Source: a virus | Virus record (IMG/VR): IMGVR_UViG_3300035698_005848 | Span: 1-31,473 of that record | Length of the DNA: 31,473 bases | Reading direction: 5' to 3' (one strand) | In this document: piece after piece, positions 3,144 through 31,473 of the stretch | How positions within the stretch are numbered: the stretch's first letter is position 1 | Layout: each line of letters starts with the position of its first letter | Translations under genes and position numbers: made by a program | The notes under the pieces: generated by a model | What the model saw: the letters and a program-made list of their open reading frames with translations, nothing else | Databases searched by the model: none | Told to the model about the DNA's origin: nothing

Positions 3144-4099
3144 CTTGGAGTCGATACGATTATGTTTTTAGATTTTTCTTTTGTATTTTTTATCTTTCTG
3201 CTTCTACTTACTGCTCCACAGTTTTTACATCTTAAAGCTTCGTAACTGTTAACATAAGTGTTGTAAGTACCACAAGACTCTAATTCATGATGTCCACAAG
3301 AAGGACATGCTTGAACGTTATCTTCTACATGCAATCCTACATTAGGGTGAGGCTTAATCCAAGGACGAAGTTTAAGATAAAGATCTTCAAGGATTCTTAC
3401 ATCTTGAATATTATAATCTTCCATCGTCTTTAATGCTTCAGGGTCTCCATTCATACAGTTTGCCCAAAGATCAAATCCTCCTGTTTCTGCTTTTACTTCT
3501 AATCCTAAAACTGCATTGATATAATTTAGACGGTTTGAAGAAAAAGAAAATCTTTTCCTGCAATGTGCTAAAGTATCAATAATGTCATAAGGACTAGGTG
3601 GAGATAATCCGTATTGTAAAAATCTTGTATTAAGACGAGGAATGTCAAAGCGTAATGCATTATGTGCTATTACTACGTCAGACTTATCTAGAAGATCCCA
3701 AATTCTTCTAATGATGCGTTCATCATCTTCGTTCTTAGCTTCGTCAGGAGTTAGCTTTGCGCTTATTACGTTATCTTCAAATAACCATTTTGCAGACCAA
3801 GTTAAACAAAACCAATCAGAAATAACTTGATTTTGACCAACATTCTCTTTCCAAAATTTCCATACATAAGCTTTGTGAGGTGCAGTTTCTATATCGAAAA
3901 CTAAGATTTTAGCTGTATGAGGAACATTCAAATGTTCTTCTTGATTACGATTGTTTTGTATTACTTTTCGTATTTGCCTTGGTTTATTAATATCTGGCAA
4001 TTTATGTAGATCTGAAAGAATCTCTCCTATTTCAGTAGAGCTATATCCTTCAGAATATAGATCCGTAATGTCTTTTGAATAATCATTCCAACTAATCAT
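3140..4099 (-). CDS. DEDDy-type 3'-5' exonuclease with HTH and zinc ribbon
   Basis: 319 aa with three visible parts. Residues 1-50 are a helix-turn-helix-like segment (YSEGYSSTEIGEIL). Residues 64-245 are an RNase H-fold exonuclease: Exo I KILVFDIETAP (Asp69, Glu71), Exo II IAHNALRFDIPRLN (Asp152), Exo III EDYNIQDVRIL (Tyr229 and Asp233, the Y-x3-D form). Residues 265-294 are a zinc ribbon with CPSC and CKNC pairs, followed by a basic tail. This resembles stand-alone exonucleases related to the proofreading domain of family B polymerases. A TAnnTTTG promoter box lies just upstream, so it starts a new transcription unit that then includes the second nuclease and connector-like genes. Confidence 0.88.
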   Translation of the reverse strand: MISWNDYSKDITDLYSEGYSSTEIGEILSDLHKLPDINKPRQIRKVIQNNRNQEEHLNVPHTAKILVFDIETAPHKAYVWKFWKENVGQNQVISDWFCLTWSAKWLFEDNVISAKLTPDEAKNEDDERIIRRIWDLLDKSDVVIAHNALRFDIPRLNTRFLQYGLSPPSPYDIIDTLAHCRKRFSFSSNRLNYINAVLGLEVKAETGGFDLWANCMNGDPEALKTMEDYNIQDVRILEDLYLKLRPWIKPHPNVGLHVEDNVQACPSCGHHELESCGTYNTYVNSYEALRCKNCGAVSRSRKIKNTKEKSKNIIVSTPR

Positions 4100-13662: not shown

Positions 13663-15099
13663 TTATGCAAAATATACAGAGGCAGTGGCGTTACCATGCA
13701 AAGTAAACGGAGAAACCGTCATTGCAGATTTTAACCAAGCTCCAAAAATAGCTTCCAAAGAAGCGATTGTGGCAGCAGATACGCCTGTAGTATCATAGTA
13801 GTTTGCGAACGTAGTGAATGCAGCAACATCTGCGATATCTTCTCCGTTTGTACAAATCGGCTCCAATACAGGAACGATAATAACTAATTGTTTAGGATAA
13901 TGTTCTACAGTGGTTAGTGTAGGCTCGTATTCAAAGTAATCAACAATATACATGTTATAATTCTTAGTAGGATCTACATACGTAATTCCTTCACTAAAGT
14001 ATTCCATGTAAGGTTGTTTCTGCATAGTATGGCGATAAATCCTAGATTGGTTATCTTCCATAATTTTCAGTTGACGGCCAGAACCAATTGGTTCTTCTGG
14101 AGAAATAAGATCTTTTCCAACAATTCCTCCTGTGTTAAAATTATCGCTAAGAGTAACTTCGATACGAGGAATAGTTTGAGAAATATCGTCAAAATAAGCT
14201 CCAGTAGTTTCTTCCAAAGAAAGGAAAATCAAAGCATCTACTTTTGCGGCAGCTCCTGCCGTAGAAAGGTTTAATACTTCAATAGTAGAAGCTGCTATAA
14301 CCCCAGCGTCTCCAGAATTAATAACAGAAGCCAAGGCTCTGATTGTTGGAGCATCAACCGTAATACTTGTAGTTACGCCTCCAATAGTCATTACGTCAAT
14401 AGAATCTCCGCAAACTGCTGTTCCGATAGCTGTTCCAGCACCTCCTGCAAGTTTTACACCAAGTACAATGAAATCTTTATTCCCTGTACGAAGAGAAGGA
14501 TTGCTAGTTGCTACAGCCTTAGAGTTTGCATTAAAGCGAACCGCAAAGTTTTGAAGCAAATGGTCCAAAGGATCGACTGTACCCAAAGTCGTATAATTAG
14601 GCGTAGTGAAAGTAGAAGCAACTACATTATCGTTGTCTCCATAATCTCTATCCATACGAACAGAATACAAAAAAGCATAAGCTTTGTAAAGAGTTTCATT
14701 TGCTGGGGTATTAAATCCACCAAATGCATGTGCGCCCAATTGAGCGGCTTTGAATTGTTTAGCTGTAAAGCTACGAACTTGCCTACGAGCTATAATATCA
14801 GAAGATACATAAGCTAGATCAGCAGTTTCCCAGGCTTGTACTTTTGAGAGATTTGCGCTCAAAGGAGTACCCTGTACGATTTTTACGTATTCAACAGTTG
14901 CAGCATCGCCCGCTTGCATGAAATCTCCCATAGGTTCAGAACCATTGAAATCCCAAGACACAAGCCCTAAAGCTCCGTTTGTGATATTCAAAGCTGTTCC
15001 AGTACCGACTAATGCGCCAGCACTTACTAAAGCCGTGTTTGTGTATCCTACAAGTAATTCGGGAATGCTATTCCTGTTGTCTCGTTTAATTTTACTCAT
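13663..15099 (-). CDS. Putative abundant virion protein (tail or head surface)
   Basis: 478 aa, Ala/Thr/Gly-rich and beta-rich, with a codon mix close to that of the capsid gene and unlike its small neighbours, which suggests high expression. Segments: basic N-terminus (MSKIKRDNRNSIPELLVGYT), a middle with long Ala/Gly/Thr loops (GVKLAGGAGTAIGTAVCGD; INSGDAGVIAASTIEVLNLS), a segment rich in acidic/aromatic residues (SQTIPRIEVTLSDNFNTGG), and a C-terminal strand set (FEYEPTLTTVEHYPKQLVII). I do not recognise the family. Its position after the connector candidate and its own strong terminator fit a major tail or decoration protein; a contractile sheath or tube is possible but I see no diagnostic motif. 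Confidence 0.8.
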   Translation of the reverse strand: MSKIKRDNRNSIPELLVGYTNTALVSAGALVGTGTALNITNGALGLVSWDFNGSEPMGDFMQAGDAATVEYVKIVQGTPLSANLSKVQAWETADLAYVSSDIIARRQVRSFTAKQFKAAQLGAHAFGGFNTPANETLYKAYAFLYSVRMDRDYGDNDNVVASTFTTPNYTTLGTVDPLDHLLQNFAVRFNANSKAVATSNPSLRTGNKDFIVLGVKLAGGAGTAIGTAVCGDSIDVMTIGGVTTSITVDAPTIRALASVINSGDAGVIAASTIEVLNLSTAGAAAKVDALIFLSLEETTGAYFDDISQTIPRIEVTLSDNFNTGGIVGKDLISPEEPIGSGRQLKIMEDNQSRIYRHTMQKQPYMEYFSEGITYVDPTKNYNMYIVDYFEYEPTLTTVEHYPKQLVIIVPVLEPICTNGEDIADVAAFTTFANYYDTTGVSAATIASLEAIFGAWLKSAMTVSPFTLHGNATASVYFA

Positions 15100-17071: not shown

Positions 17072-18664
17072 TTAAGCTTCAGCAGTGTACATAGCTGGAT
17101 TGTAAGCAATACGTCCCAAACGAGTCGTATCCCATACACACAATGCTCCAGACATTTCACGGTAGATACCTGCCATTTTATTGTTAGAGTTTGCGTTAGA
17201 TCCATCTTTGATAGCTCCTGATTGGAAATCATAGACATTAGATACAGTGTAGTAACTTTCTACTCCGCCCTGCATTACACAAGTAATGTTTTCTGGACGA
17301 TTTGCGTCGAAAGCTTTTTGATCCGTTGCACCGAAATCGAAAATATCCATTGCGAAAGATTCGTTAGTACGATTAGTACCTGGAGCCTTTTCAGGGAACA
17401 GTTTACGATCATCTTTGATAGGATCATGGAAAACTTGTACTACATATCCCATAGGGAATTTAATAGATACAAATTGAGAACCGAATTCCAAAGCGTTGTC
17501 ATGGAACATAGAAGATACAGATCTTAAGAAATGAGTATCTACATATTGGAACAAACTAGCTTCGTTTGCAATAAGTGCAGAGAAAAATGCGGCTCCACCT
17601 TCTCCCGTAGCCAAAATGATTTTACGATCATTAAATGCTCTACGAGTGATAAAGATGTTAGACAAGAACTCATAAATATCACTTAGAGTAAGTGAACCAT
17701 TATGTTCGTAGTAATGACCATCTTTAACAATTTGTCTCCAACCTGGAGCAACTTTCAATACCCTTCCAGAATCTGAATCGGTAGTTTTTTCAAGTTGACC
17801 AAATTCAAAGTTCATTTCACGGTCCATTTCAGTACGTTCCAAAAGACGAGCTTCTGCTTTCGTAATGAATACACCTTGTTCAATTTTCTCACCTTTTCCG
17901 TTTTGGAAATTTTGCTTGTAAACATAACCTACTCCAATAGCGTTATCTTCTTTATATTGTTTGTGCATAGCACGTCCGTCAGTACGACAGCCAATTTCAA
18001 GACGAATAAACTTATCAGAGAATTCTACTTTGTTTGCATAGTTACCAGTCCAAGATTGAAGTTTGAACATTTCACCATACTGATCTGGTCCAAATTTTTG
18101 GTTGTTTTCGTCAGCTACAGAAGTAGACACACGAATCAACCTTCTACCTGGTTGCAGGTATTCAGAAGGAATAAAATTCATCAAGTCACCCGTTTGTAGT
18201 TCAGCTACATATTCAAAAGAATTTGTAGAAATACGAGTAGGGTAACCTATAATACGAATCAATGGTAAATTAGCATTTTCCGTTTTAAGCAAAACTGGCT
18301 CATGAAGCCAATCTCGGTCAACACGGATTTTGAAACGCAACTTACCTTTTCCTGCAGTGCTTCCATTGTCCACGTACTCGGAAATACGGAAATCTACATC
18401 CGTATCGCTTTCCAAAAACCATTCGTAATCATCTACACCGTCTTGAAGAACGTAAACGTTCTTTTTAGCAACAGTTAGATAAGTAAATTTTTTGTTTAGT
18501 AAGTGCTGACCTTGCTCTGCACTAAACAATTTAGAAGTAACAAGTCCAAAGTTATGCGGCTTGTACGTTCTAAACATAGCTGCATGAGTCAAGGAGTCAA
18601 AGCTTGACCCACCCCATGCTTGTCGCTCTACCGTTTGTAAAGCTGTCTTTCTGTTTAAACTCAT
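17072..18664 (-). CDS. Major capsid protein
   Basis: 530 aa. Size, position (after scaffold, before connectors), balanced codon use and own terminator all fit the major capsid protein, the HK97-fold shell subunit. Characteristic segments: SSFDSLTHAAMFRTYKPH at the N-terminus; DYEWFLESDTDVDFRISEY; GKLRFKIRVDRDWLHEPVLL; FGPDQYGEMFKLQSWTGNYA; FITKAEARLLERTEMDREMN; EHNGSLTLSDIYEFLSNIF; and the end REMSGALCVWDTTRLGRI. I recall this pattern from capsid proteins of large Bacteroidota phages. No N-terminal pro-domain is obvious, so maturation may rely on a separate scaffold rather than a cleaved delta domain. Confidence 0.9.
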   Translation of the reverse strand: MSLNRKTALQTVERQAWGGSSFDSLTHAAMFRTYKPHNFGLVTSKLFSAEQGQHLLNKKFTYLTVAKKNVYVLQDGVDDYEWFLESDTDVDFRISEYVDNGSTAGKGKLRFKIRVDRDWLHEPVLLKTENANLPLIRIIGYPTRISTNSFEYVAELQTGDLMNFIPSEYLQPGRRLIRVSTSVADENNQKFGPDQYGEMFKLQSWTGNYANKVEFSDKFIRLEIGCRTDGRAMHKQYKEDNAIGVGYVYKQNFQNGKGEKIEQGVFITKAEARLLERTEMDREMNFEFGQLEKTTDSDSGRVLKVAPGWRQIVKDGHYYEHNGSLTLSDIYEFLSNIFITRRAFNDRKIILATGEGGAAFFSALIANEASLFQYVDTHFLRSVSSMFHDNALEFGSQFVSIKFPMGYVVQVFHDPIKDDRKLFPEKAPGTNRTNESFAMDIFDFGATDQKAFDANRPENITCVMQGGVESYYTVSNVYDFQSGAIKDGSNANSNNKMAGIYREMSGALCVWDTTRLGRIAYNPAMYTAEA

Positions 18665-18676
18665 AATTTATTTAAT

Positions 18677-19744
18677 TTAAAGGATAGGTTTCAATCCAGC
18701 TAACTTACTTCTTGAACCTTTCTTTGGCATATCTTCGGATGAAGAACCACTACCTTTTGAAGTATAAGCATCCCTAAATATAGAACTTTTTTGTTTTTCT
18801 ATATGTTTGGTAGCTTCTTTATTCAAGAAATCAGTCATGTCAAATTTCTTAGTTTTAAAATCATAATAAGTCAAAAGATTAGCAAACTCTACATAGCTTT
18901 TTGGATCACTAAAAGCGTCTCTAATAACTTCTGAAATTTTATTATTCGCAATAACGTCAAGAACTTTTTCCTGACGTTCTTTTTTCCAACCAGTATCGAC
19001 TATCTCTTGTCTAATACTTTTAATAAAAGCTACTTCTTCGTTTCTTTTATTTTGCGATTCTACTACTGTATTCTGAGCTTTTTCCTCAGTTTTAAGTTTT
19101 TTCTTTTTATCTACAAGTAAAGCATTTGCTTCATCGATCAATTCGTCTTCTATATCTAAAGCGTCTAAAGCTTTGTTAATTACCGACTCACGCATTCCTT
19201 TGATTTTGTATTCGGCTTTTAAAAACTCTCGTGCAGCATTAAGATTATCCTCAGAGAACGATAAAGAATTAACCGTTTCATCTTCAAAGAAATCTTCATA
19301 GAAGTCTTTTAGATCTTGTCGTGTAAGTTCAGAACCTTTGTTCAAAACAAATATAGCTAAATTTTGACCGAAATCAGGAAGATCTTCTACCATCGCATTA
19401 ACGATAGACTGAGGAGCTTGCAATTTCAACAAATCTTCAATATCGTCATAGGAGTTGATGTCACTATCGGGTAGAATCAATCCTATTTGCTTCAACACTT
19501 CTGCTGTAGCTTTTGCAGACTTTACCTCCGCTAACGGCAGGTTTGACAAGTCTTCGTCTTCCTCGTCCTCGTCAATTTCGAAGAACTCTTCTTCGGAAGG
19601 ATCGTCTTCTTCTTCGTCGTCTCCGTCGTCTTCGGTTTCAAAATTTGTTTTTGAGAAATCATTTAACGGTTCGTCATCTAAAAGTTGTGTTGATAACTCT
19701 TCATCCATGATAGGAAGGAAGTCATCCAAAGTTTCAATTTCCAT
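18677..19744 (-). CDS. Putative scaffolding protein
   Basis: 355 aa. Residues about 35-70 are almost only Asp/Glu (DDGDDEEEDDPSEEEFFEID), followed by helical and coiled-coil segments (SVINKALDALDIEDELIDEA; KKKKLKTEEKAQNTVVESQN) and a basic C-terminus (PKKGSRSKLAGLKPIL). An acidic front, helical middle and basic tail just upstream of the capsid gene are typical of phage scaffolding proteins, whose basic end binds the coat. It is the first gene after the 19.77-kb promoter and ends 12 nt before the capsid ATG, so scaffold and capsid are co-transcribed. Direct homology was not recognised. Confidence 0.75.
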   Translation of the reverse strand: MEIETLDDFLPIMDEELSTQLLDDEPLNDFSKTNFETEDDGDDEEEDDPSEEEFFEIDEDEEDEDLSNLPLAEVKSAKATAEVLKQIGLILPDSDINSYDDIEDLLKLQAPQSIVNAMVEDLPDFGQNLAIFVLNKGSELTRQDLKDFYEDFFEDETVNSLSFSEDNLNAAREFLKAEYKIKGMRESVINKALDALDIEDELIDEANALLVDKKKKLKTEEKAQNTVVESQNKRNEEVAFIKSIRQEIVDTGWKKERQEKVLDVIANNKISEVIRDAFSDPKSYVEFANLLTYYDFKTKKFDMTDFLNKEATKHIEKQKSSIFRDAYTSKGSGSSSEDMPKKGSRSKLAGLKPIL

Positions 19745-19850: not shown

Positions 19851-22400
19851 TTAAATATCTTGAACCGATTTGTTTATTTCAACCTCGTTTTTAAGTAATT
19901 GCGTATTAGTTGCGTTTTGACCTTTCAAAGTTTCTTCTAATACAATCTTCTCTTTTTCATGTGATTGCATATCTTCTCGATTTTCAATCTCACGTTCTTG
20001 CATTTGCTTTTGAGCTTCCATCTGAGCTTGTTGCTGCTGTTGTTGACTTTCTTGCATCGTTTTTTTCTGTCTTACAGCAAGGATCTGAATTTGCTTATGG
20101 ATTTCTTCAGGACTAGCTCCAGAGAAAATATCTTTCAATATACCAGATATAATTTCTACTCCTTCCCCTGCATTTTGAGCTAGAGGTTGTATATTTTGAA
20201 GCATGTACTCCATATACTTTTGATCCCCTGTAGAAATTTCAGAATACAATCCAAAATCAATATGTTCTAACATTTTAGGCGTTATCTTAAATAATTTATC
20301 TTTTCCATCTGGGCCGATATAATGTAAGATGTTATTAGTTTCTTCAGGAAATTCTTCAAAATATCTTTGCTGCCAAGTTCTAAAATTCTTCAGATAATCA
20401 TTTAACACACAATCCCATACTTTAGAATGATAATAAAAATACGGTTCTGTAATATTAGCTGATTGAACAATAGCCTGTTGATTATCGGTTACGTTTGAAT
20501 TGTTAGAAAATTGAGCTTCTCTTTGAGGAGAGATGCCCATAGCCCAACCTACTTCTTGCTCTAACAAATCAGCTAACTGTTGAAGATTAAATATATCTCC
20601 TGCTGTACCTATTAGTGTTGCACTACCTCCTGGAGATCTAGTTGCAGGAAGAGGTCTGTTACCTGTGGTTTGAGAACCAGAGTAAAAATTGATAGCTGTT
20701 TTCCGTCTAATAGCTAACCATGTAGCAATAGGATCTCTAATAACCTGACCATCTACGTCTATACCCAATTCTTTCGGTATCTGATCTACATCAACGTTTT
20801 GGATAAATCCTTCATACTTGGCCAATTCTCTATTCTGAACATGTTTAACGTACAGGAATTGGAAATATGCAGGGATAGCTCCTTGTACTAAAGACAGGGA
20901 GTGTGCATTCCTAGAATTCATTACAAGACCAAATGTAGATAGATTAAAGTTTGAAAATGGGTTATCTAAATTAGTTGATTGAAAAGGTACTTCTCCATAT
21001 TTAGGATATACATCTGTTCCCAAACGTATAACTTCATATTTACGAGGAATCCACATTTCTTCCGCTGTATATTCAGAAGATCCATTATCCCAAATATACC
21101 TAACACTATCTATCATGTATTTATTAACAAACTTTTCTTTCCTAGCGTCTTTTGGGATCGAGAAGCTATCAGGTAACATTAAGGTTATTCTTTCATTATA
21201 ATCATCAGTATAAGATAGGAATACTACTTTACGGTATCCTTTAAATTCAAGATGAGTTTCCCAAACCAATCTATTCCCCATTGAGTAATCTCTAAGATTT
21301 CCCGTACCTTGATTCATACCTATATTCTTATTTGAATTAGTAGAATCTAAGTAATAGAAGTTCCCATCAGAAGAGTTATACATCATCTTACCTTCTTTCA
21401 AAGCTTGATTCTCATGTATAGGTTCTGCCCCTCCTCCAAGTACATCATTTCTTTTATTCCTTGAACTAGGAGAATAAGAATAAGAAAGCAACGAATCTAT
21501 TTCATCTTCTGATAAATTAGGATACGTATCCATAATATGATTCAATGTTACAGGCTTTCTGTAAATAATGTAGTCTGATTTATGAATAAATCTTTCATTG
21601 GGATCTTTTTTAAAAGAAGTAAATAAAGTATTTCTAATCTCAATAGAAGGTTTACCAAATTTCCAACCTGAATACGCATAGAATCTATCGGAAATTAAAA
21701 GGTCTAAAAGAGAATCTAACTTTTTGGTTTTTAAATCTTCTAACCTTTCAGCATATTTCAAAGCATCGCTATAAAAAACTTCATAATCAGATTTGAATTC
21801 ATGACCTAAAACTTTATCAATACCTTTTTCTTCTCGAATAGATTCTATAAACTGTTGAATTTCTTCTTCAGATTTACCTTGCATCTTCATTTGCAAACCT
21901 TGAATTTCAGCAGCTAATTCCTCTTCTACAGCGGCAGAAAGTTCTTTAACAAGTAACTCATCTTTATCCTTAATTGCTTTTAAAGATAAAAGAATGATCT
22001 TATGTCTTTCATTTCTTTTTATATATTCACCTGTCAGAACATTGACTTTATTCCTTAAAATAGGATATGCTTGAATTTCTTCTTCAATTTCTCCTGTAGT
22101 ACTAAGTACTTCACCCAAAGGATCACAAAAGAGATTAACTTTATCCCTAAAGGAAGATAAGTCATTATTTAGTATTTCGTATGCAGATTTCAACTTCTCA
22201 TAATCTGGAAGATAAGGATCTAAAGAAGGAGAAACAGAATTTAAAATATCTTTAAAATACTGTCCCTCATCTTTATGCTTTTCATCTTCAGAAACTTTAA
22301 GCTGAATAAACCTACGATAATCAGGTTGTTTAGTAGATTTTTTAGGTTCCCCTATCTTTTTGCCAAAAAATTTGTTTTTAGCTACTTCTGAGTGCTTCAT
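19851..22400 (-). CDS. Portal protein
   Basis: 849 aa, in the size range of large-phage (crAss-like) portals. The N-terminus is basic; residues about 100-240 are helical; the centre contains aromatic/strand segments typical of portal wing and stem (FIHKSDYIIYRKPVTLNHI; RKVVFLSYTDDYNERITLML; MGISPQREAQFSNNSNVTDN). The C-terminus from about 760 is a long Gln/Glu-rich coiled coil (QESQQQQQQAQMEAQKQMQE), matching the barrel or crown extension seen in large portals. The dodecamer would sit at one capsid vertex and dock TerL during packaging and the connectors afterward. Its ATG overlaps the chaperonin stop (ATGA), so it is translationally coupled to it. Confidence 0.88.
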   Translation of the reverse strand: MKHSEVAKNKFFGKKIGEPKKSTKQPDYRRFIQLKVSEDEKHKDEGQYFKDILNSVSPSLDPYLPDYEKLKSAYEILNNDLSSFRDKVNLFCDPLGEVLSTTGEIEEEIQAYPILRNKVNVLTGEYIKRNERHKIILLSLKAIKDKDELLVKELSAAVEEELAAEIQGLQMKMQGKSEEEIQQFIESIREEKGIDKVLGHEFKSDYEVFYSDALKYAERLEDLKTKKLDSLLDLLISDRFYAYSGWKFGKPSIEIRNTLFTSFKKDPNERFIHKSDYIIYRKPVTLNHIMDTYPNLSEDEIDSLLSYSYSPSSRNKRNDVLGGGAEPIHENQALKEGKMMYNSSDGNFYYLDSTNSNKNIGMNQGTGNLRDYSMGNRLVWETHLEFKGYRKVVFLSYTDDYNERITLMLPDSFSIPKDARKEKFVNKYMIDSVRYIWDNGSSEYTAEEMWIPRKYEVIRLGTDVYPKYGEVPFQSTNLDNPFSNFNLSTFGLVMNSRNAHSLSLVQGAIPAYFQFLYVKHVQNRELAKYEGFIQNVDVDQIPKELGIDVDGQVIRDPIATWLAIRRKTAINFYSGSQTTGNRPLPATRSPGGSATLIGTAGDIFNLQQLADLLEQEVGWAMGISPQREAQFSNNSNVTDNQQAIVQSANITEPYFYYHSKVWDCVLNDYLKNFRTWQQRYFEEFPEETNNILHYIGPDGKDKLFKITPKMLEHIDFGLYSEISTGDQKYMEYMLQNIQPLAQNAGEGVEIISGILKDIFSGASPEEIHKQIQILAVRQKKTMQESQQQQQQAQMEAQKQMQEREIENREDMQSHEKEKIVLEETLKGQNATNTQLLKNEVEINKSVQDI

Positions 22401-23890
22401 ATTTTAAATGGAGATTTTGTTTCGTATTCATTATGTAAAATAAAAGAAGAGTTTATAAATAATTTACATGTAGCAGCAGCATTGATCAAAGATTGAATTA
22501 TTACTTCTGTAGGATCTATAACACCTTCTTCTAGAAAATTTTGTATTTCGTTAGTTTTTACATTATACCCATAATTAGGTTCAATATTCTTCAAAATTGA
22601 TTCAGGATGCAAATTAGCATTCTTTAAGATTTGATATGCGTTTTCTTTTAATACTGAATTTACAATCGAAGTAGATTCAGGATTATATAAGTTGTACAAT
22701 GCAATACCGCCTCCTGCGACGTACCCATAGTCAACCGCAGCATTAACTGCTCCAATTGCGTCTTCAATTCTATCATATTCTTCGTTTAAAGCTTCAGAAG
22801 TTACTCCCCCAGCATAAATGATAACACTTGAACCTTTTAGTTTATAAATACGGTCAATAATATCATTTGATTCAAAAGTATCTAAAGCGTGATTCTTCAA
22901 ATCGTTTAATTGCTCAATTCTATCCTCCAAGGAAGGAGTATCGGAATTATATAAAGTAAAATAGTTTGGTCCTACTATGATTTTTTCTACCATATTTTCT
23001 TCATCGAGAAATGCAAGAATGTCATCATAATTTTTCAATTGACTATTACCATGCCCAGGAGTTTTAATTGCAACTACTTGAAGACCGCTATTAACTTTAT
23101 TCATACTTAATGCACGAATAGCAGCATCTCCAAATCTAGGAGCAATGATTACTACAGGACGTAAATTCTCTTTAGCCTCAGATAAAAACTGTTGAAGTTC
23201 GAGACTTAGATCTGGAATAGGTGTTTTCGAAACAAGAATCGAAGGATATTCATAAATAGCTTGTTCTGTATGTTTATCTGTCATAAATGAAGAATGTACA
23301 TAACCAGATGAAAACTCTAGACCTTTATGAACTTCAAAATACGTGTCTTCAGATTCTTCAGAACGTTCTAGTTTAATCAATGTATCTAATCCTGTTTCTT
23401 TATAAATTTCATAAAACAATTCTCCAATAATTTCAGAATTGGAAGAAATTTTAGCAATATCTCTTATTTGTTCAGGTGTAGTAACCTCAATAGACTTTTC
23501 TCTAAGTTTAGCTACTGTTTGCTTTACTTCACGATCCATTTCGGCAAATACTTTATTTATATCTGTATTATCGTAAATATTTCTTTTAGATTGTTGCAGT
23601 AAAGATTGTAATAGTACAGCCGTAGCTGTAGTTCCATCCCCGACTTCGTCTACTGTTTTTTCACAAGCGGAAACTAAAATTTTTGCTCCTATATTTTTAA
23701 GAGGATTTTCAAAAGATATTTTTTTAGCTACGGATACTCCGTCTTTTGTGAATCTTAAATTTTTAGCGTCTGAATCGCTTATAATGACTGTTTTACCTCG
23801 TCCTCCCATAGTGGATTTAACTACATCAGCAGCTAAATTCAATCCGTCTAAGGATTTCTCAAAATTATTTGTTAATTCCTGTGTGACCAT
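22397..23890 (-). CDS. groEL: Phage GroEL-type (group I) chaperonin
   Basis: 497 aa, clear Hsp60 over the whole length (host GroEL is about 548). Equatorial ATP site: STMGGRGKTVII, FTKDGVSVAKKI (Asp50), DEVGDGTTATAV (GDGTT 84-88), AGGG 392-395 and DPTEV (Asp459). The hydrolysis aspartate equivalent to E. coli Asp398 is present in IEDAIGAVNAAVDYGYVAGG (Asp377). The apical domain (about 185-345) keeps the substrate-binding helices (DLSLELQQFLSEAK, RFGDAAIRALSM). The Gly-Met tail of bacterial GroEL is missing; the protein ends NEYETKSPFKI. It overlaps TerL by 19 nt and the portal by 4 nt, so it is made with the packaging machine. An active ATP-driven folding chamber is expected. Confidence 0.95.
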   Translation of the reverse strand: MVTQELTNNFEKSLDGLNLAADVVKSTMGGRGKTVIISDSDAKNLRFTKDGVSVAKKISFENPLKNIGAKILVSACEKTVDEVGDGTTATAVLLQSLLQQSKRNIYDNTDINKVFAEMDREVKQTVAKLREKSIEVTTPEQIRDIAKISSNSEIIGELFYEIYKETGLDTLIKLERSEESEDTYFEVHKGLEFSSGYVHSSFMTDKHTEQAIYEYPSILVSKTPIPDLSLELQQFLSEAKENLRPVVIIAPRFGDAAIRALSMNKVNSGLQVVAIKTPGHGNSQLKNYDDILAFLDEENMVEKIIVGPNYFTLYNSDTPSLEDRIEQLNDLKNHALDTFESNDIIDRIYKLKGSSVIIYAGGVTSEALNEEYDRIEDAIGAVNAAVDYGYVAGGGIALYNLYNPESTSIVNSVLKENAYQILKNANLHPESILKNIEPNYGYNVKTNEIQNFLEEGVIDPTEVIIQSLINAAATCKLFINSSFILHNEYETKSPFKI

Positions 23891-26271
23891 AATCTTTCGT
23901 TATTTGTTAAAAATTTTAAAGGGTTTGACTTATTTTTGTTAGTTATTTTTTCAGTAATGTAAAACTCTCTTTCTTTAATTATGGTAGGTATAAGTATTAA
24001 AGCTGATACCGCATCATAATTAGAAGACTTATCCATATTGAAATCTACAATTTGATCAACTGTAAATTTACAACTTATAATCTCAATAATTCTCTTTATA
24101 TCACCATTTTTAGTTATAACTTCCGATTTCAACCAATCCGAAGCCTCGTCTAACATTTGTATTTTTTGCCTACCGTTCGATACAGATATTCCATATTCGG
24201 TAATTCTTTTAGCTATAGAAGAACTGGAATCGTATGTACCTGGTTGTAAACCTAGCAAGCAAGCTTTTCCTTTCTTTATATAATAATCTCTGCAAGATCT
24301 ACCTCTATTCTTTTCATAATAGTGTGCATTATCTTGATTACCGTACAAAGCTAATAATTTTTCCTGAACTTCGTGATACCCGTCTAATCCCCCAGCATGT
24401 TTTGCTGTATAAGAAGCCACGATAGGTCCTTCGTCAGTTAAATAATCTTCCCAATACAAAGGATCTAGTATTATAAAAGTTGTTCCTAAAGAACCTCCAT
24501 CTTCTAAATTATCAGATACATAAGGATCGTATGCGGAAAAGTACATACCTTGAGGTATCTCCCCTCGAATAAATTCAGGCATTGTATAAATAACAACAGG
24601 TGCTTCTTTTGTAGTCCTATCGCTTTCTATAGGAAAATTATAATACGGTTGCAAATCTGTTTCAGGCTCTACTTTAACACCATAAGGTTGAGTTGTATCC
24701 CATGTAAGTTTTACAGGAGTGCCTATATCCATGAACTTTCCATTTTTGGATAATACTTTTTGCCTCAAAACCGCTTCATCATAAGGTAAATAATAACCTT
24801 TACTACTTATCCACATTTCAGATGGTAAAATAGGAGCGTTCATTTTTTCATCCCTTAATACAGAGGGGTCTGTAGATTTAGCTGCTTTCTCTCTATTTTT
24901 TAAAGTTTCAGCAAAAGCTAATTCATATATTGTATTACCGTCTTCATCTTTACAAAAATTAAGAGTAATGTAGAAAGGTAAAAAGAAACCTATATGTCCA
25001 TTTTGCCCCAATTCTTCTGGGTCTTTGTAAGGTAATATATCATAGTCATAGGGATTCATAAACTTCTTCTTAGTTTGCTGAACCGATTCTATATTTCCAG
25101 AAGTACCTAAATCAATCTGTACTCCAAATTGAATACCGTCTCTTGAGACTACAAACTTGTTAGAATTGTGTACTTCTATACTGTTACCTGTAAGACCACT
25201 CTCCTCCGTGAAAGAATATAATACCCTACCCCCTGCACCTGCTTGAGAACCTTTTCCTTGCGCTTTACCTTCAAAATAAGATACATGATACAGTTTTGAT
25301 TTGGATCCTTTTTTTATTTCACGACCTTTGTTTATAACAGAGTATTCGTGCCTCCAAGGATTCTCTTTATTATTAGGACCTATACTACCAGTCATTTGTT
25401 TAAAGAATGGCATAGGAGTATATCCATCGTCTCCTTCTTTACCCCACACTCCCAATTTAGAATTGGTAGCAAATTGATTCATTGCAAATTGAATCTTATT
25501 GGCAAATTCTGAAGATTGACCAGAGTTACCTGAACCAACCATTATCTCAGCAATCGGTTGAGAATACTCTTCTTTATATAGAGGATCCTTGTAGTATTTT
25601 CCGTCTAGGTTACTATAATATCTTGCTCCATCTGTAACTATAGCATGTAAACCTTTACCTAAAGAAGCGAAGTAACTCTTGCCGCCTCCTCGTGAACCCA
25701 ATATACTAAAGTTGCAAGCGTGATTGTACCACAATGCTTTACCTAAAGGTTTACGGTGAGCTTTCTTTAAGTAAGCTAAAGGATCTATATATTCTTTTAG
25801 TTGACCTTTAGAATTAAAAAGCATCAAATGCCTTATTTTTAACTCCTCGTGTACAGTATCAGGAATACCATTTTTTTTATAATCCATAACTAACGAATCA
25901 GAAGTGAATTGTTCATCTTCTGAAAATCCAGAGAAACCCCCTGCTACACTTAAACCATAAGACAGTTCCCAATCTAAGTCACGAACTAACGGCTTAATAG
26001 GTTCGGTAATCTTTGCAGCGTTAGTTCTTTGAATAACACAAAAGTTACCATAAAAGAAAAGATCTCCGAACATAAACCTGTATCCCGAAGATTCTTGACC
26101 CCACATTCCTTCTATAACAATCTGTTTTAGATCCCTCCAATAAGGTATATATCTACCCTGATCTTTAGGGTTGATCATTTCTACATTGAATAAATATTGT
26201 TTTAAGTTTTCTATTCTGACGTAGTCAGTAGTCAACTTCTCAACTGGTATATCGAGAATATGTGTAATCAT
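23872..26271 (-). CDS. terL: Terminase large subunit
   Basis: 799 aa, the ATP-driven packaging motor and nuclease. ATPase: Walker A FSILGSRGGGKSYF (GSRGGGKS at 192-199) and Walker B RVLYSFTEESG (349-359, two catalytic Glu candidates). Nuclease (RNase H-like) half: MYFSAYDPYVSDN (Asp582), an acidic site around HYYEKNRG (Glu653), and the late NYDAVSALILI (Asp753). Length is far above the ~500-600 aa common in small phages and fits crAss-like and other large Bacteroidota phages. The start at 26271 overlaps the metallopeptidase gene by 32 nt; the MITHILDIP start is the only ATG near the domain start. A small terminase is not firmly identified. Confidence 0.95.
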   Translation of the reverse strand: MITHILDIPVEKLTTDYVRIENLKQYLFNVEMINPKDQGRYIPYWRDLKQIVIEGMWGQESSGYRFMFGDLFFYGNFCVIQRTNAAKITEPIKPLVRDLDWELSYGLSVAGGFSGFSEDEQFTSDSLVMDYKKNGIPDTVHEELKIRHLMLFNSKGQLKEYIDPLAYLKKAHRKPLGKALWYNHACNFSILGSRGGGKSYFASLGKGLHAIVTDGARYYSNLDGKYYKDPLYKEEYSQPIAEIMVGSGNSGQSSEFANKIQFAMNQFATNSKLGVWGKEGDDGYTPMPFFKQMTGSIGPNNKENPWRHEYSVINKGREIKKGSKSKLYHVSYFEGKAQGKGSQAGAGGRVLYSFTEESGLTGNSIEVHNSNKFVVSRDGIQFGVQIDLGTSGNIESVQQTKKKFMNPYDYDILPYKDPEELGQNGHIGFFLPFYITLNFCKDEDGNTIYELAFAETLKNREKAAKSTDPSVLRDEKMNAPILPSEMWISSKGYYLPYDEAVLRQKVLSKNGKFMDIGTPVKLTWDTTQPYGVKVEPETDLQPYYNFPIESDRTTKEAPVVIYTMPEFIRGEIPQGMYFSAYDPYVSDNLEDGGSLGTTFIILDPLYWEDYLTDEGPIVASYTAKHAGGLDGYHEVQEKLLALYGNQDNAHYYEKNRGRSCRDYYIKKGKACLLGLQPGTYDSSSSIAKRITEYGISVSNGRQKIQMLDEASDWLKSEVITKNGDIKRIIEIISCKFTVDQIVDFNMDKSSNYDAVSALILIPTIIKEREFYITEKITNKNKSNPLKFLTNNERLWSHRN

Positions 26272-26734
26272 AACCTAAATGAGTAAGTAATTTAGCATAA
26301 TACTTTCGTGCATTATACTCCGCTTCATTTTCTATAATGGAATCTATTATTAACATACCGTCTTCCGTAAATACTTTTTTCATTTTATATTTAGGATTCC
26401 ATGTAGTTTCGTTTTCTTGACAAACCTCTTGCAAGTAATGTACGTATTCATGTATAAAAGTACGAGCTAAAGAACATACATCTAAATGAACATTAACGTT
26501 TACGTATATAGTATTGTTCTCACAATCATAGGCCCCGTAAGATAACTCTTTAACTAAAGAAAGCATACCGTCTTCATCTTCTTCAAACATATCAAACATA
26601 AGTTTGTTATTCCTTCGTACATTAGGAATAGTTTTAGAAGGAGAAGTCCCCAGAACAGTACTGCACCATTCTAGGGATTTCTTTAAGTCAAACAAATGTG
26701 TTTTATATAAGTCCTTTTTCTGTTGGCGTTTCAT
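26240..26734 (-). CDS. HExxH zinc metallopeptidase-like protein
   Basis: 164 aa. RTFIHEYVHYLQEVC contains HEYVH (95-99), the zinc-binding and catalytic HExxH of gluzincins, set in a hydrophobic helix. A later helix IIENEAEYNARKYYA (135-139) supplies candidate third ligands, the arrangement of small M48/SprT-like or anti-restriction-type peptidases. The first 60 residues are charged, with no leader, so it acts in the host cytoplasm or in the virion. It is encoded just before TerL with 32-nt overlaps on both sides. Prohead maturation is an attractive role because no other protease is visible in the window, but this is not shown by sequence. Confidence 0.75.
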   Translation of the reverse strand: MKRQQKKDLYKTHLFDLKKSLEWCSTVLGTSPSKTIPNVRRNNKLMFDMFEEDEDGMLSLVKELSYGAYDCENNTIYVNVNVHLDVCSLARTFIHEYVHYLQEVCQENETTWNPKYKMKKVFTEDGMLIIDSIIENEAEYNARKYYAKLLTHLGYDYTYSRYTS

Positions 26735-27287
26735 CCCTTCCTCCTTTTACTTTACTAGAAGAATCTTTTTGTGTTGTAAATTTAGCAAGTAGTTCTTCTA
26801 AATCTGCATAAATTTGTTTAGAGTTTTTTCTAAGACTATCTAATTGAGTTGAAGTACCTTTCATAATTACTGCTTTATCACCTCCCTTAGCGTCTAAAAC
26901 TATTTTAGTTTCGTCTAGTGTATATTCAGTTTCTCTAATTAATTTAGCTCTTTCTCTTAAAGATTCCTTTTCTTCATGTAAAGCTCTTTCGATAGAATTC
27001 ATACATTCAAACGGATATATTTCTAGACATTCTTGAAATATTTCATTATCCCAATCTAAATCAGGATACATTCTACATATAGAATCTTTACGCATTTCTT
27101 CAGGCTGACGATATAAGGTATTCTCCTTTTCGTCTGGATCGCACATAATCCATATAGCCCATGCATAATTAGAAGAATCTGGTAAAGCATGAAGTTTATC
27201 AAAAGGTTTAATATACCTTACGAAAGGATTCCATGTCCAGAAATCTTCTTTTTGGTTAAAAGGATATGGTGTTTTTACAAAGTCCAT
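26703..27287 (-). CDS. Conserved TerL-adjacent protein, possibly packaging-related
   Basis: 194 aa. The first half is Trp/Pro-rich with FWTWNPFVRYIKPFDKL and SNYAWAIWIMCDPDEKEN; the second is a long coiled coil (ERALHEEKESLRERAKLIRE; LRKNSKQIYADLEELLAKF) ending in a conserved-looking KGGRDETPTEKGLI. I recall this layout from proteins just upstream of TerL in Bacteroidota phages, where a small terminase subunit would be expected, but the N-terminus is not an obvious helix-turn-helix. It overlaps the upstream 69-aa gene by one base. Role in genome recognition or motor regulation is inference from position. Confidence 0.78.
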   Translation of the reverse strand: MDFVKTPYPFNQKEDFWTWNPFVRYIKPFDKLHALPDSSNYAWAIWIMCDPDEKENTLYRQPEEMRKDSICRMYPDLDWDNEIFQECLEIYPFECMNSIERALHEEKESLRERAKLIRETEYTLDETKIVLDAKGGDKAVIMKGTSTQLDSLRKNSKQIYADLEELLAKFTTQKDSSSKVKGGRDETPTEKGLI

Positions 27288-27496
27288 TATTTAAATCCTC
27301 TAATTTCAGGAGCAGAGCTTTTAGGCTTTTCCCCGTTTAGTGAATATTTTCCAGAATGTACAATATACATATTTTGTTCATACACATTGATTCCACAAAA
27401 CATATATGTTACATTAGTTGTTTCGTTTAAAACTGGATTAGAATCTGGATCATTTTCGATCCAATTTAAATTTTGAGTAATTGTTTTCCTAAACAT
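27287..27496 (-). CDS. Small protein of unknown function
   Basis: 69 aa, no recognised family. It reads LNWIENDPDSNPVLN, then NVTYMFCGINVYEQNMYIVH and a short basic end; secondary structure looks like a small beta fold. It is flanked by overlaps (8 nt with the DUF5675 gene upstream, 1 nt with the TerL-adjacent gene downstream), which supports it being a real, coupled gene despite its size. Confidence 0.65.
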   Translation of the reverse strand: MFRKTITQNLNWIENDPDSNPVLNETTNVTYMFCGINVYEQNMYIVHSGKYSLNGEKPKSSAPEIRGFK

Positions 27497-27929
27497 AACT
27501 AATAATTTTAATTGTTGTTGAACTAACGTCTATTAAATCTTTATGTAATTTATCTAAAGCTTTTTTAGAATTAATTAGGTCTATAATACCATCTCCGTTA
27601 ATATCTTTATGATCTGTACCTATTCCAATACAACCATTCAATTCTTTAGTAAAATTAGCTACATGAATCTTTGCTTCTGATCTATTTTCTACTCCGTAAA
27701 GTTCCCATAGATTGGTTTTAAACTTGGGGGAATATTCTAAAACGATAGGATACTCACCTTCTGGAATAGAAGAAACCATCCTTTGATTGTTTTGCCAAGG
27801 TAATTCCAGAGCAGCATAAGAACTAACTATCTTCCCCGCTGGATTCACGACGTACAACCACCCTAGAGTATTGTTGTGATCTTGTTGAAAACGTACTAGT
27901 AATAGACTTGGTTTGGTTTTGCTCCTCAT
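27489..27929 (-). CDS. DUF5675-family protein, putative cell-wall acting
   Basis: 146 aa. The pattern is that of DUF5675: LLLVRFQQDHNNTLGWLYV, then AALELPWQNNQRMVSSIPEG, EYPIVLEYSP, and RSEAKIHVANFTKELNGCIG. Arg83, His89 and Cys100 recall the H...GC(I/V) site of L,D-transpeptidase-like enzymes. Next comes a DINGDGIID loop that matches the Ca-binding D-x-N-x-D-G-x-x-D form. Members occur widely in Bacteroidota phages and have been suspected to act on peptidoglycan; I do not know of a settled activity. Its first 107 nt overlap the end of the upstream gene in another frame, but the domain begins right after the start codon, so the start cannot be moved far. Confidence 0.8.
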   Translation of the reverse strand: MRSKTKPSLLLVRFQQDHNNTLGWLYVVNPAGKIVSSYAALELPWQNNQRMVSSIPEGEYPIVLEYSPKFKTNLWELYGVENRSEAKIHVANFTKELNGCIGIGTDHKDINGDGIIDLINSKKALDKLHKDLIDVSSTTIKIISYV

Positions 27930-28303: not shown

Positions 28304-28591
28304 TTACATGATTAAGAAAAATATAAAAGTGAATAAAATAAGATATAAAAACATTCTTATAGCCAGTGCATGTTCTCTCTCCCCAAACATACCTTTGGGA
28401 CATGGTTTCGAGGAACTAAACATTTCTTCTATATCGCAACCGCATTCTTCACAGTATCCGAGATCCCAACATTCAGAACATTTTAACTTTTTATAAGAGA
28501 TTAGTTTTTTATCAGAAATAAACTTGCTCTGAATATAATATACTATATTCTCTAATTTAAATATATTGATTACAAGTTGCTTTAAAGTCAT
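28304..28591 (-). CDS. Cys-rich protein with C-terminal membrane segment
   Basis: 95 aa. The centre has a cysteine cluster (KCSECWDLGYCEECGCD, then KPCPKG) that could bind zinc, and the last ~20 residues are a membrane segment (MFLYLILFTFIFFLIM), giving a tail-anchored layout with the Cys domain on the cytoplasmic side. It lies next to the putative cell-wall gene, so a part in lysis or in membrane-linked assembly is possible. A holin normally has more or differently placed segments, so I do not name it one. Confidence 0.72.
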   Translation of the reverse strand: MTLKQLVINIFKLENIVYYIQSKFISDKKLISYKKLKCSECWDLGYCEECGCDIEEMFSSSKPCPKGMFGEREHALAIRMFLYLILFTFIFFLIM

Positions 28592-29208
28592 TATTTTTTA
28601 ATTTGAATAGCTTGAGCAGGAATAAGCATATACCCATATCCTTTATGAGAAGGGTCTAAAGGCATATTGTTTCCTTCAATAAAATCAGGATGTAGGAATT
28701 GGAAAGGTAGATTAATATAACCGTTATCTCCAGAACCTAACATCTTACCTTCTGTTACAGGATTAGCGAGAATAACTACATCTCCTACTTTAAGTTCTTC
28801 TTTCATGTATTGAGGAGTAGCTACAATATGAGCAATCCTTGAAAAAGGCCAAGGGTTCTTCAAAGCTCCTACTGATCCAATCTTAGAATTAGTAGGTAGA
28901 GATACAATCTGTTCAGAAGGCATCAGTAAACCTTGATCGTTACGTCTAAGAGGATTAACCTCTACTCTAACCAAAATCTGTGAAAAAGGAACTAATTTTT
29001 TATAATCTTCATCAATATATGATATTTGTTCATTGTAAGCAATAAGCTTCTCGTTAAATCCTTCATTAAAATCAAATACATCTACTGTATCGTTAACTGA
29101 GTCTACACTTTGCCCAGAATCATCAAACATAGGTTGAAGTACATCCCTCATGGGCTTTTTCATAAAAGGTTTATCAGCTTTTCTCATTGACGCTTTGCGA
29201 CTGTTCAT
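28591..29208 (-). CDS. GroES-like co-chaperonin candidate
   Basis: 205 aa: a charged, probably flexible N-terminus (1-65) followed by a GroES-type fold. The match is in order: PFSQILVRVEVNPLRRNDQG (74-93) as the first strand and start of the mobile loop; GLLMP (93-97) at the place of the hydrophobic GroEL-binding tripeptide in GIVL(P); RIAHIVATP (124-132) like the GEVLAVG strand; ELKVGDVVILANP (138-150) like VKVGDIVIF; and YMLIPAQAIQIKK (193-205) like the closing strand 'hLIhxxxDILAxhE'. An insertion at 150-190 could form the roof. With a GroEL gene 4.7 kb downstream in the same gene run, it is a likely partner. T4 gp31 is a precedent for a diverged phage GroES. Start codon uncertain (ATG 29208 or 29187). 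Confidence 0.7.
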   Translation of the reverse strand: MNSRKASMRKADKPFMKKPMRDVLQPMFDDSGQSVDSVNDTVDVFDFNEGFNEKLIAYNEQISYIDEDYKKLVPFSQILVRVEVNPLRRNDQGLLMPSEQIVSLPTNSKIGSVGALKNPWPFSRIAHIVATPQYMKEELKVGDVVILANPVTEGKMLGSGDNGYINLPFQFLHPDFIEGNNMPLDPSHKGYGYMLIPAQAIQIKK

Positions 29209-30695: not shown

Positions 30696-30776
30696 TAAGC
30701 ATATATGGAAAAAGGTGTGTGAGAATAGAGAGTGGTGGCATCTAACACCCAACCCCTTCTAATGTTCGGCGAGATC

Positions 30777-30803
30777 GGTACCCCGCCATAAGAATCGGGT
30801 ACC
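30777..30803 (+). promoter_or_regulatory. Leader hairpin upstream of rightward gene
   Basis: GGTACCC and GGGTACC form a perfect 7-bp stem around a 13-nt loop, 32 nt before the ATG at 30836. Because GGTACC is itself palindromic, the element is both an inverted and a direct repeat. No T run follows, so it is more likely an RNA stabiliser, translational control element or operator than a terminator. Confidence 0.5.
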
Positions 30804-30835
30804 ACAAATGTAAGTTCACGCATAAATCAAATATC

Positions 30836-31114
30836 ATGCGCTTCGGAAAAGAATTCACAGTTCCAGCTTTTAGAGCTGCCCTTGGTCTCACAACCCTTAA
30901 AGTCGTAAAGAACCCTAAGACGAACAAGTTGTTCCTCTCAGGGGACGGACGTACCGTAGGCAAGGTCTCCAAGTCAATAGATTTGACTGGACATCTCTCG
31001 GTCGTTGAGATGATCGACGAAGAGGAGAGTGCGGACGGCAAAAAGAGTACGGAAATGACGTATTGTCTGGTAAACCAGAGTGATACGAACGTTCTCTTAG
31101 ACCTCTCCCTCTAA
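30836..31114 (+). CDS. Small rightward phage protein, high GC, function unknown
   Basis: 92 aa, the only convincing plus-strand gene. It begins MRFGKEFTVPAFRAALGLTT, followed by LKVVKNPKTNKLFLSGDGRT, VGKVSKSIDL and an end TYCLVNQSDTNVLLDLSL. I recall small proteins with the same 'FGKEFT ... TLKVVKNPKT-KLFF ... G-VS' pattern from many Bacteroidota phages; no function is known to me. Codon use is strikingly different from the leftward genes (many CTC, GTC, AAG, GAC, CTT; GC about half versus roughly a third), and it ends in a UUCG-loop terminator. With promoter, leader hairpin and terminator it forms a complete monocistronic unit, probably strongly expressed and early. Confidence 0.85.
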   Translation: MRFGKEFTVPAFRAALGLTTLKVVKNPKTNKLFLSGDGRTVGKVSKSIDLTGHLSVVEMIDEEESADGKKSTEMTYCLVNQSDTNVLLDLSL

Positions 31115-31120
31115 CCCAAT

Positions 31121-31150
31121 GACCAGTCCTTCGGGGCTGGTCCTTTTTTA
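31121..31150 (+). terminator. UUCG-loop intrinsic terminator
   Basis: GACCAGTCC, loop TTCG, GGGCTGGTC (9-bp stem, one G-U pair), then CTTTTTTA. It starts 6 nt after the stop codon of the rightward gene. The UUCG tetraloop closed by C-G is among the most stable known. Confidence 0.92.
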
Positions 31151-31473
31151 TTCCTTTACTCTTAAAAAAGGGTAAAACGCTATTGAAAGTTGTTAACAAC
31201 GGTAGAGTCTTGCGATATACTACACAAAGCAGCGATAAGATGTAAGAAGCTTACTTAAAGTGCTAATTGTGATACTAGTCAACTATCAAAGACTCTACTA
31301 TTTTCAACCCAAACTCTTAGGGTTCAAGTTAAGAGTAATTATTTCACTATAAATTATCCATCATGGTAATCTTTAGAGGATTGGTAATGTCCAAACAGGA
31401 CGTTCTGGAATATGACCTAAAGTAGGTTGCATTCATAAAGTATAGTCCTAAGCAAGACTGAAAAGGCTTAAAA
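31151..31473. other. Non-coding, hairpin-rich right end
   Basis: 323 nt with no convincing gene; the longest ATG frame I note is 20 codons (31363-31425). It contains a long-range inverted repeat (GTAGAGTCTT at 31202-31211, AAGACTCTAC at 31289-31298), a hairpin ACTCTTA/TAAGAGT (31313-31336), and near the edge three short ones: GTCC/GGAC, ACCTA/TAGGT and AGTC/GACT. This density suggests a structured RNA or a control region for a gene beyond the edge. No tRNA cloverleaf was found. Confidence 0.5.

Follow-up and report, generated by a model that had tools for sequence, protein, structure and literature searches.

The borrowing of GroEL by phages is long established, and the question is which phage proteins need a chaperonin of the phage's own. 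It arises at a locus where a GroEL-like gene is lodged between the genes for TerL and the portal protein. The locus lies in the window, i.e., the whole 31,473-nt stretch analyzed here, a 31-kb fragment in which the crass-type major capsid protein (MCP), portal, and TerL occupy a syntenic block.

The chaperonin gene and its packaging neighborhood

The relevant features are as follows.

17072..18664, minus strand: major capsid protein, 530 aa, 60.3 kDa (Pfam Crass_capsid, 128 bits; cut-off, 27)
18677..19744, minus strand: acidic 355-aa protein in the portal-MCP gap, a candidate scaffold or head protein by position only (place kept in related loci)
19851-22400, minus strand: portal protein, 849 aa, 98 kDa (phrog_6547 portal, 197 bits; crAss-like portals by tblastn)
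22397..23890, minus strand: group I chaperonin (GroEL-like), 497 aa, 55.3 kDa (Pfam, PHROG, structure model, and intact ATP-site residues)
23872-26271, minus strand: TerL, 799 aa, 91 kDa (best tblastn match, TerL of Cellulophaga phage phi14:2; E = 6e-70)
26703..27287, minus strand: probable small terminase (TerS-like), 194 aa, upstream of TerL (family kept before TerL)
28591..29208, minus strand: probable GroES-like co-chaperonin, 205 aa, 23.1 kDa, with an N-terminal extension of ~70 aa (phrog_3188 match of a homolog, structure model, and hhalign)

Because the capsid protein matches Crass_capsid, the portal matches phrog_6547, and TerL is nearest to that of phi14:2, the phage is, by its sequence, crAss-like (Crassvirales). 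The 194-aa protein resembles by eye g095 of phi14:2, which occupies the equivalent place; a TerS role has been suggested for crAss gene 86 (PMC7886860). At its start, the GroEL gene shares 19 nt with TerL, and at its stop it shares 4 nt (ATGA) with the start of the portal gene, both as given in the preliminary description of this DNA. A search for Bacteroidota-type promoters returned one coding-strand site, located inside the GroEL gene and not above chance, so it is gene overlap alone that argues for cotranscription.

The 22397-23890 open reading frame begins with ATG and matches Pfam Cpn60_TCP1 (PF00118) at 124 bits, against a curated cut-off of 34.3, and phrog_5725 groEL at 326 bits, scores that exclude a chance match. 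The Hsp60-family HMM search proposed in the preliminary description thus bears out its identification of a full-length GroEL, whose gene lies on the minus strand. The predicted structure (pLDDT, 89.8) aligns with GroEL-ADP (PDB code 4ki8) over 485 residues (Z = 39.4) and has the equatorial, intermediate, and apical domain folds. Relative to Escherichia coli GroEL, it has only single-residue insertions and an 18-residue apical deletion, and it lacks the built-in lid (helical protrusion) of group II chaperonins. The GDGTT motif and residues D52, D87, D398, and D495 are all present, and the four aspartates are invariant in all 29 GroELs of the clade described below, as are, or almost so, most of the glycines of the ATPase cycle. 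Hence, the ATP-site aspartates are complete, as had been claimed. The same residues bear on the idea that the chaperonin has been converted into a structural protein of the virion or a protein of host takeover: its location among virion genes and fast-evolving apical domain would suit such a change, but a structural role would not need the conserved ATPase residues, and we regard it as highly improbable. By sequence and fold, the product is a group I chaperonin, for which a seven-membered ring, ATPase activity, and folding activity are predicted.

This chaperonin departs from the canonical bacterial form in several respects. It scores 262 bits against the NCBIfam equivalog TIGR02348, below the cut-off of 582, and is therefore not filed as an orthologous bacterial GroEL. 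The loop bearing the inter-ring residue E434 is deleted in 28 of the 29 clade members, a loss hinting that the rings of the phage GroEL may pair weakly or act singly, and residues 532 to 546, including the GGM tail, are missing from all of them, confirming by alignment the reported absence of a C-terminal Gly-Met tail. The apical domain is the least conserved in the clade, which as a whole lacks the 18-residue apical segment; in the window protein, positions that contact the substrate or the lid are replaced (L234 to Q, V263 to S, and Y203 to S). The apical substrate helices noted earlier are retained as helices H and I of the model, but several of their contact residues are not.

Conservation and origin of the TerL-GroEL-portal order

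A scan with a portal alignment, which recovered the family of relatives (single-sequence scans with GroEL or the 205-aa protein returned few or none), identified the TerL-GroEL-portal order in 37 further IMG/VR contigs besides the window. In most of these loci, GroEL overlaps one or both neighbors by a few to ~90 nt. The related-genome search suggested in the preliminary description thus upholds its view that the position is unusual, and we found no description of this order in the literature searched, although a prior one is possible. With the order preserved in at least 37 viral contigs besides the window, the inserted GroEL belongs stably to the assembly program of these viruses and is no stray gene. 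A single insertion accounts for the order in the portal tree (support, 96), and GroEL has since been inherited together with the head genes. GroEL divergence correlates with that of the portal (Mantel r = 0.85), TerL (0.80), and MCP (0.79), with 0 of 2,000 permutations as high, and dN/dS values of 0.10 to 0.16 for GroEL indicate purifying selection. No GroEL separates TerL from the portal gene in the relatives designated L047, L050, and L054, and the 80-kb L050 contig has no Pfam chaperonin match at all; therefore, related phages can do without a chaperonin.

In a tree that also contained 18 GroELs of bacteria and 19 of other phages (including those of EL and PBS1, the latter taken here as an AR9-like relative, but not that of OBP), the inserted GroELs form one clade with a support of 100 and a stem of 1.03, apart from all of these bacterial and phage GroELs, with EL and PBS1 on separate branches. 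The window GroEL is only ~30% identical to Bacteroidota GroELs. AU tests gave P = 0.41 for a joint clade with the known crAss-like GroELs and P = 0.09 for a grouping with Bacteroidota, with long branches limiting both. The latter value bears on a deep origin; nothing of weight supports recent capture of a host GroEL that merely rides along as passenger DNA, a reading contradicted by the low identity, the long and fully supported stem, the deletions common to essentially all clade members, the purifying selection, and the order kept in the other contigs. We rejected host capture on these grounds, and likewise the recent random insertion from a host that the preliminary description had held up as refuting.

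The preliminary description had, however, limited phage GroELs to a few large phages, whereas hundreds of phage records have one, including those of crAss-like phages in which GroEL precedes TerL. Their presence in crAss-like phages was already known from phi14:2, cr108_1, and cr111_1 (Steigviridae, Asinivirinae) and from Nishimura et al. (2017). The first three likewise encode a group I chaperonin on the same strand just before the TerL-portal module, but it lies 2.5 to 3.3 kb upstream of TerL, and TerL adjoins the portal, unlike in the window. Their GroELs are only ~30% identical to those of the inserted clade; the phi14:2 and cr108 proteins are ~40% identical to host GroELs, against ~30% for the window. 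For marine Bacteroidetes phage group 2, whose environmental genomes are relatives of Cellulophaga phi38:1 and IAS virus, Nishimura et al. report GroEL in 36 of 78 genomes (PMC5332604); the passages of that paper compared here describe neither gene order nor a GroES partner, and these genomes may include close relatives of the window lineage.

The varied sites of GroEL in other phages (near replication genes in Calle, upstream of TerL, or between the tail sheath and tail tube genes) lend some weight to a general folding aid for many phage proteins or for the infected cell, one that came to lie between TerL and portal by chance and was held there by operon structure, and a single insertion can persist through inertia. 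Nevertheless, the junction is unbroken across 30 GroELs with a mean identity of only 40%, even though introns, inteins, and additional genes have invaded its surroundings, and it is the client-binding apical domain that has diverged most, matching the prediction for specialized clients. We consider a general folding aid of this kind rather unlikely and a dedicated function the better reading.

A probable GroES-like co-chaperonin

About 5 kb from the GroEL gene lies a previously unannotated gene encoding the 205-aa protein. This half of the system (28591-29208) was missed in the preliminary description. The protein is 37% identical to a protein of a related contig (L014:2710-3309) that matches phrog_3188 co-chaperonin GroES weakly (E = 6e-5). 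Searches with its structure model placed GroES/Cpn10 at ranks 1 to 3 in Foldseek (probability, 0.93 to 0.99; E = 0.009 to 0.09) and GroES, Cpn10, or gp31 at ranks 1 to 13 in VIA (Z = 5.2 to 6.4), modest values in both cases; lower-ranked ADH rows share the GroES-like fold. Aligned with hhalign, the family matches GroES with E = 9e-5 (controls, 0.2 to 0.7), and a G-[LVI]-hydrophobic-hydrophobic-P motif, found in 10 of 12 members, is set onto the GroES mobile loop (GIVL). No GroES/Cpn10 match was obtained with Pfam or NCBIfam models, and with the sole phrog_3188 match being weak, we call the protein GroES-like rather than GroES; a PDB sequence search with the family profile also did not find GroES. 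A Cas10 assignment by PADLOC (E = 0.005) was dismissed as chance.

The GroES-like gene occurs in all nine chaperonin-bearing contigs larger than 38 kb. Together with the motif aligned to the mobile loop and the placement of the inserted clade apart from EL, this speaks against a lid-free open ring, in which the 205-aa protein would have another job. Such rings have precedents: the chaperonins of the jumbo phages EL, OBP, and AR9, which are ATP-dependent GroEL relatives with ring-ring contact altered or absent, function without a co-chaperonin (PMC9598537), that of EL failing to bind E. coli GroES and forming single rings upon ATP (PMC7185714) and that of AR9 being a single ring (PMC9598537). 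The changed GroES-contact positions and lost inter-ring positions of the phage GroEL also point that way, as does L050, which keeps the GroES-like gene with GroEL undetected. On balance, we judge a lid-free ring improbable and prefer pairing with the GroES-like protein. A phage-encoded ring and lid also occur in Elemovirus (Flavobacterium), together with a second GroES-annotated protein adjoining TerL, but its groEL-groES pair is encoded on the strand opposite TerL, ~5 kb away, and the record's taxonomy is outside Crassvirales.

Proposed function and client proteins

We propose that in this crAss-like phage GroEL works as a group I chaperonin driven by ATP. Its gene is probably cotranscribed and translationally coupled with TerL upstream and portal downstream, an arrangement by which the protein would appear during synthesis of the head and packaging proteins. 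It would probably partner the GroES-like lid (28591-29208) to enclose and fold late phage proteins. The GroEL-GroES cage normally holds well below 91 to 98 kDa. Among the clients suggested in the preliminary description, this weakens the portal (98 kDa) and TerL (91 kDa), whereas the 60-kDa capsid protein would fit better and is the most likely client. Gene adjacency alone is no proof of client identity. The analogy is with T4, where gp31, which is essential to fold the 56-kDa gp23 (PMC6318259), retools GroEL for that protein. In both cases a phage-adapted GroES-type lid is tied to capsid folding, and gp31 is among the VIA matches noted above; T4, however, contributes just a lid and relies on the GroEL of its host, whereas the window phage encodes a ring and a probable lid, the latter about twice as long.

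We therefore consider it reasonably probable that the locus specifies a chaperonin and co-chaperonin that form a dedicated pair and are expressed alongside the head genes, with the 60-kDa capsid protein as the most likely client. More tentatively, the packaging operon of this lineage may have come to include a GroE system of the phage's own, comprising a ring whose ring-ring contacts are weakened and whose apical domain is remodeled, along with a new 200-aa GroES-like lid family with an N-terminal extension, coevolved for its own head proteins and held in fixed proportion through translational coupling. The lid-like family, unrecognized by Pfam and NCBIfam, may hide in many phage genomes. In keeping the genes for the ring and the probable lid together with those for the motor, portal, and capsid, these phages offer a natural system in which to test a ring and lid on the capsid, portal, and terminase proteins that one genome encodes.

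A chaperonin gene among the packaging genes of a crAss-like phage

The window is a 31,473-base linear virus record from IMG/VR, and almost all of its genes are on the minus strand, including the following:

28591-29208, minus strand: GroES-like protein, 205 aa, some 5 kb ahead of GroEL in the direction of transcription
23872-26271, minus strand: TerL, closest to that of Cellulophaga phage phi14:2
22397-23890, minus strand: GroEL-like chaperonin, 497 aa (Pfam Cpn60_TCP1, 124 bits; PHROG groEL, 326 bits)
19851-22400, minus strand: portal, matching a crAss-type PHROG
17072-18664, minus strand: capsid protein, 60.3 kDa (Pfam Crass_capsid, 128 bits)

The capsid, portal, and TerL matches identify the phage as crAss-like. 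As initially described, the ORF coordinates place the GroEL start 19 nt inside the end of TerL and its stop 4 nt inside the start of the portal gene. Between the TerS-like gene (26703-27287) and TerL lies a gene (26240-26734) whose 164-aa product contains HExxH (FIHEYVHYLQ) and by eye resembles a metallopeptidase; this protein has no Pfam match and is absent from all related loci scanned. Other observations are a 146-aa protein of unknown function (27489-27929; DUF5675, Pfam PF18925, 89 bits) and, near the contig end, a short region (30740-31199) of apparently higher G+C that contains a plus-strand 92-aa ORF and faces the other genes.

GroEL in crAss-like phages is already known: it is annotated in the records of phi14:2, cr108_1, and cr111_1, and Nishimura et al. 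(2017; PMC5332604) reported it from the phi38:1/IAS group, in 36 of 78 genomes. GroEL is present in hundreds of phage records, beyond the few large phages mentioned in the preliminary description. Its judgment that the seat between terL and portal is unusual agrees with our searches, as no earlier description of such an order was found in the records and papers that they covered. A Vibrio phage (PP083314.1) presents another chaperonin amid virion genes, with GroEL flanked by the genes for tail sheath and tail tube.

Spread and origin of the inserted chaperonin

Related loci (L-numbers below; coordinates are those of each locus) were collected by a portal-alignment scan and GroEL scans, and a gene scan covered all loci. 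Apart from the window, 37 contigs have the TerL-GroEL-portal order, complete or as far as the contig reaches, and several of these contigs are 99 to 117 kb long; most GroEL-portal junctions overlap or are separated by a gap within about 11 nt, and a few loci (L005/L006, L014, L016, and L030) have additional ORFs between TerL and GroEL. Some of these genes are interrupted. The 798-aa GroEL ORF of L034 (3217-5613) has an in-frame, LAGLIDADG-bearing insert of ~300 aa inside the GDG/TT ATP motif; the insert ends in THN in intein fashion and, with no Hint-domain match, is intein-like only. An intein splits TerL in L006 (3895-7356; Hom_end_hint) and in L015 (399-3851), whose TerL is of similar length, and apparently intron-borne LAGLIDADG ORFs interrupt it in L007 (1984-2682) and L014 (6645-7349).

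In the portal tree, loci with this order form a single clade (support 96), adjoined by L047, L050, and L054, which lack GroEL between TerL and portal; further out are L064 and the phi14:2/cr108_1/cr111_1 group, with GroEL upstream of TerL. L064 encodes there a highly diverged 548-aa GroEL-like ORF (1936-3582), its TerL and portal genes adjoining as in phi14:2. Most simply, the chaperonin gene moved once into the TerL-portal junction and was strictly inherited thereafter. GroEL distances correlate with those of portal (r = 0.85), TerL (0.80), and MCP (0.79), values reached in 0 of 2,000 permutations, and GroEL dN/dS is 0.10 to 0.16 in five pairs (portal slightly lower, 0.08 to 0.10).

A tree of 66 sequences places the 29 inserted GroELs in a clade of their own (support 100), with a stem length of 1.03 substitutions per site and apart from the GroELs of 18 bacteria and 19 from other phages. 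The window GroEL shares 52% identity with its closest relative and about 30% with any GroEL from a host or another phage. Its position outside the bacterial GroELs, on this long stem and at this identity, excludes recent capture of a host gene. AU tests did not reject a shared origin with known crAss-like GroELs (P = 0.41) and did not firmly reject grouping with Bacteroidota GroELs (P = 0.09).

Conservation of the ATP site and divergence of the apical domain

The predicted structure of the window GroEL (pLDDT 89.8) aligns with GroEL over 485 residues (Z = 39.4). In E. coli numbering, it retains T30, G32, D52, G53, D87, G88, T89, T90, D398, G414-416, and D495; the four ATP-site aspartates, reported intact at the outset, are invariant across 29 relatives, as are G53, T89, G414, G416, and two hinge glycines, G192 and G410. 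Three stretches of E. coli GroEL are missing from the window protein: residues 300 to 317 (apical), 426 to 437 (equatorial, including the inter-ring residue E434), and 531 to 546 (the GGM tail region, whose absence had been noticed), gaps that essentially all clade members share. Pairs of sequences within the clade are on average 43% identical in the equatorial domain, 46% in the intermediate domain, and 34% in the apical domain, whereas in Bacteroidota GroELs conservation is highest (78%) in the apical domain. The chaperonin motor is thus kept, and the part that binds clients and lid is free to vary. The apical substrate helices had been described as present; the model contains both (230 to 241 and 255 to 268), although not every contact residue is intact. 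The loss of inter-ring residues suggests that the rings of this clade may pair weakly or be single, like the chaperonins of phages EL and AR9 (PMC7185714, PMC9598537).

A probable lid and the candidate client

The preliminary description overlooked the partner gene at 28591-29208. Its 205-aa product has no Pfam or NCBIfam match, and we name it GroES-like rather than GroES because the GroES family sequence models do not recover it. Several comparisons nevertheless point to a probable lid. A homolog in L014 (37% identity) matches the PHROG co-chaperonin GroES (E = 6e-5). For the structure that AlphaFold predicted from 12 relatives (pLDDT 78.7), the three best Foldseek matches are GroES or Cpn10 and the 13 best VIA rows are GroES, Cpn10, or T4 gp31 (Z = 5.2 to 6.4), with modest scores in both. 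Aligned with GroES by hhalign, the family gives E = 9e-5 (shuffled and unrelated controls, 0.2 to 0.7), and a G-[LVI]-hydrophobic-hydrophobic-P motif, found in 10 of its 12 sequences, is paired with GIVL of the GroES mobile loop. The gene is present in all nine chaperonin-bearing contigs of >38 kb searched. No description of this family as a lid was found in the records and papers that the searches covered.

A 79.8-kb relative retains the GroES-like gene (L050:1766-2443) with no Cpn60 match anywhere on the contig; it may rely on host GroEL, like T4 gp31, or the contig may be incomplete. Elemovirus NC_055853.1 has two annotated GroES genes (14306-14848 and 21563-21814): one neighbors groEL, and the other lies immediately upstream of TerL. 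The one upstream of TerL matches the 205-aa protein only marginally (E about 0.03).

The ring and probable lid genes share a strand with the head genes, the former embedded by its overlapping reading frames. The client, the binding of the lid, the ring state, and joint transcription are all inferred. The portal and TerL, initially suggested as clients along with the capsid protein, exceed at 98 and 91 kDa the normal chaperonin cage limit. The T4 capsid protein gp23 (56 kDa), described as already slightly too large for the cage, requires the phage lid gp31 for folding (PMC6318259), and the 60.3-kDa capsid protein of the window parallels it. Ring and probable lid would be made late, together with the head proteins, and would fold them, with this capsid protein as the best candidate client.
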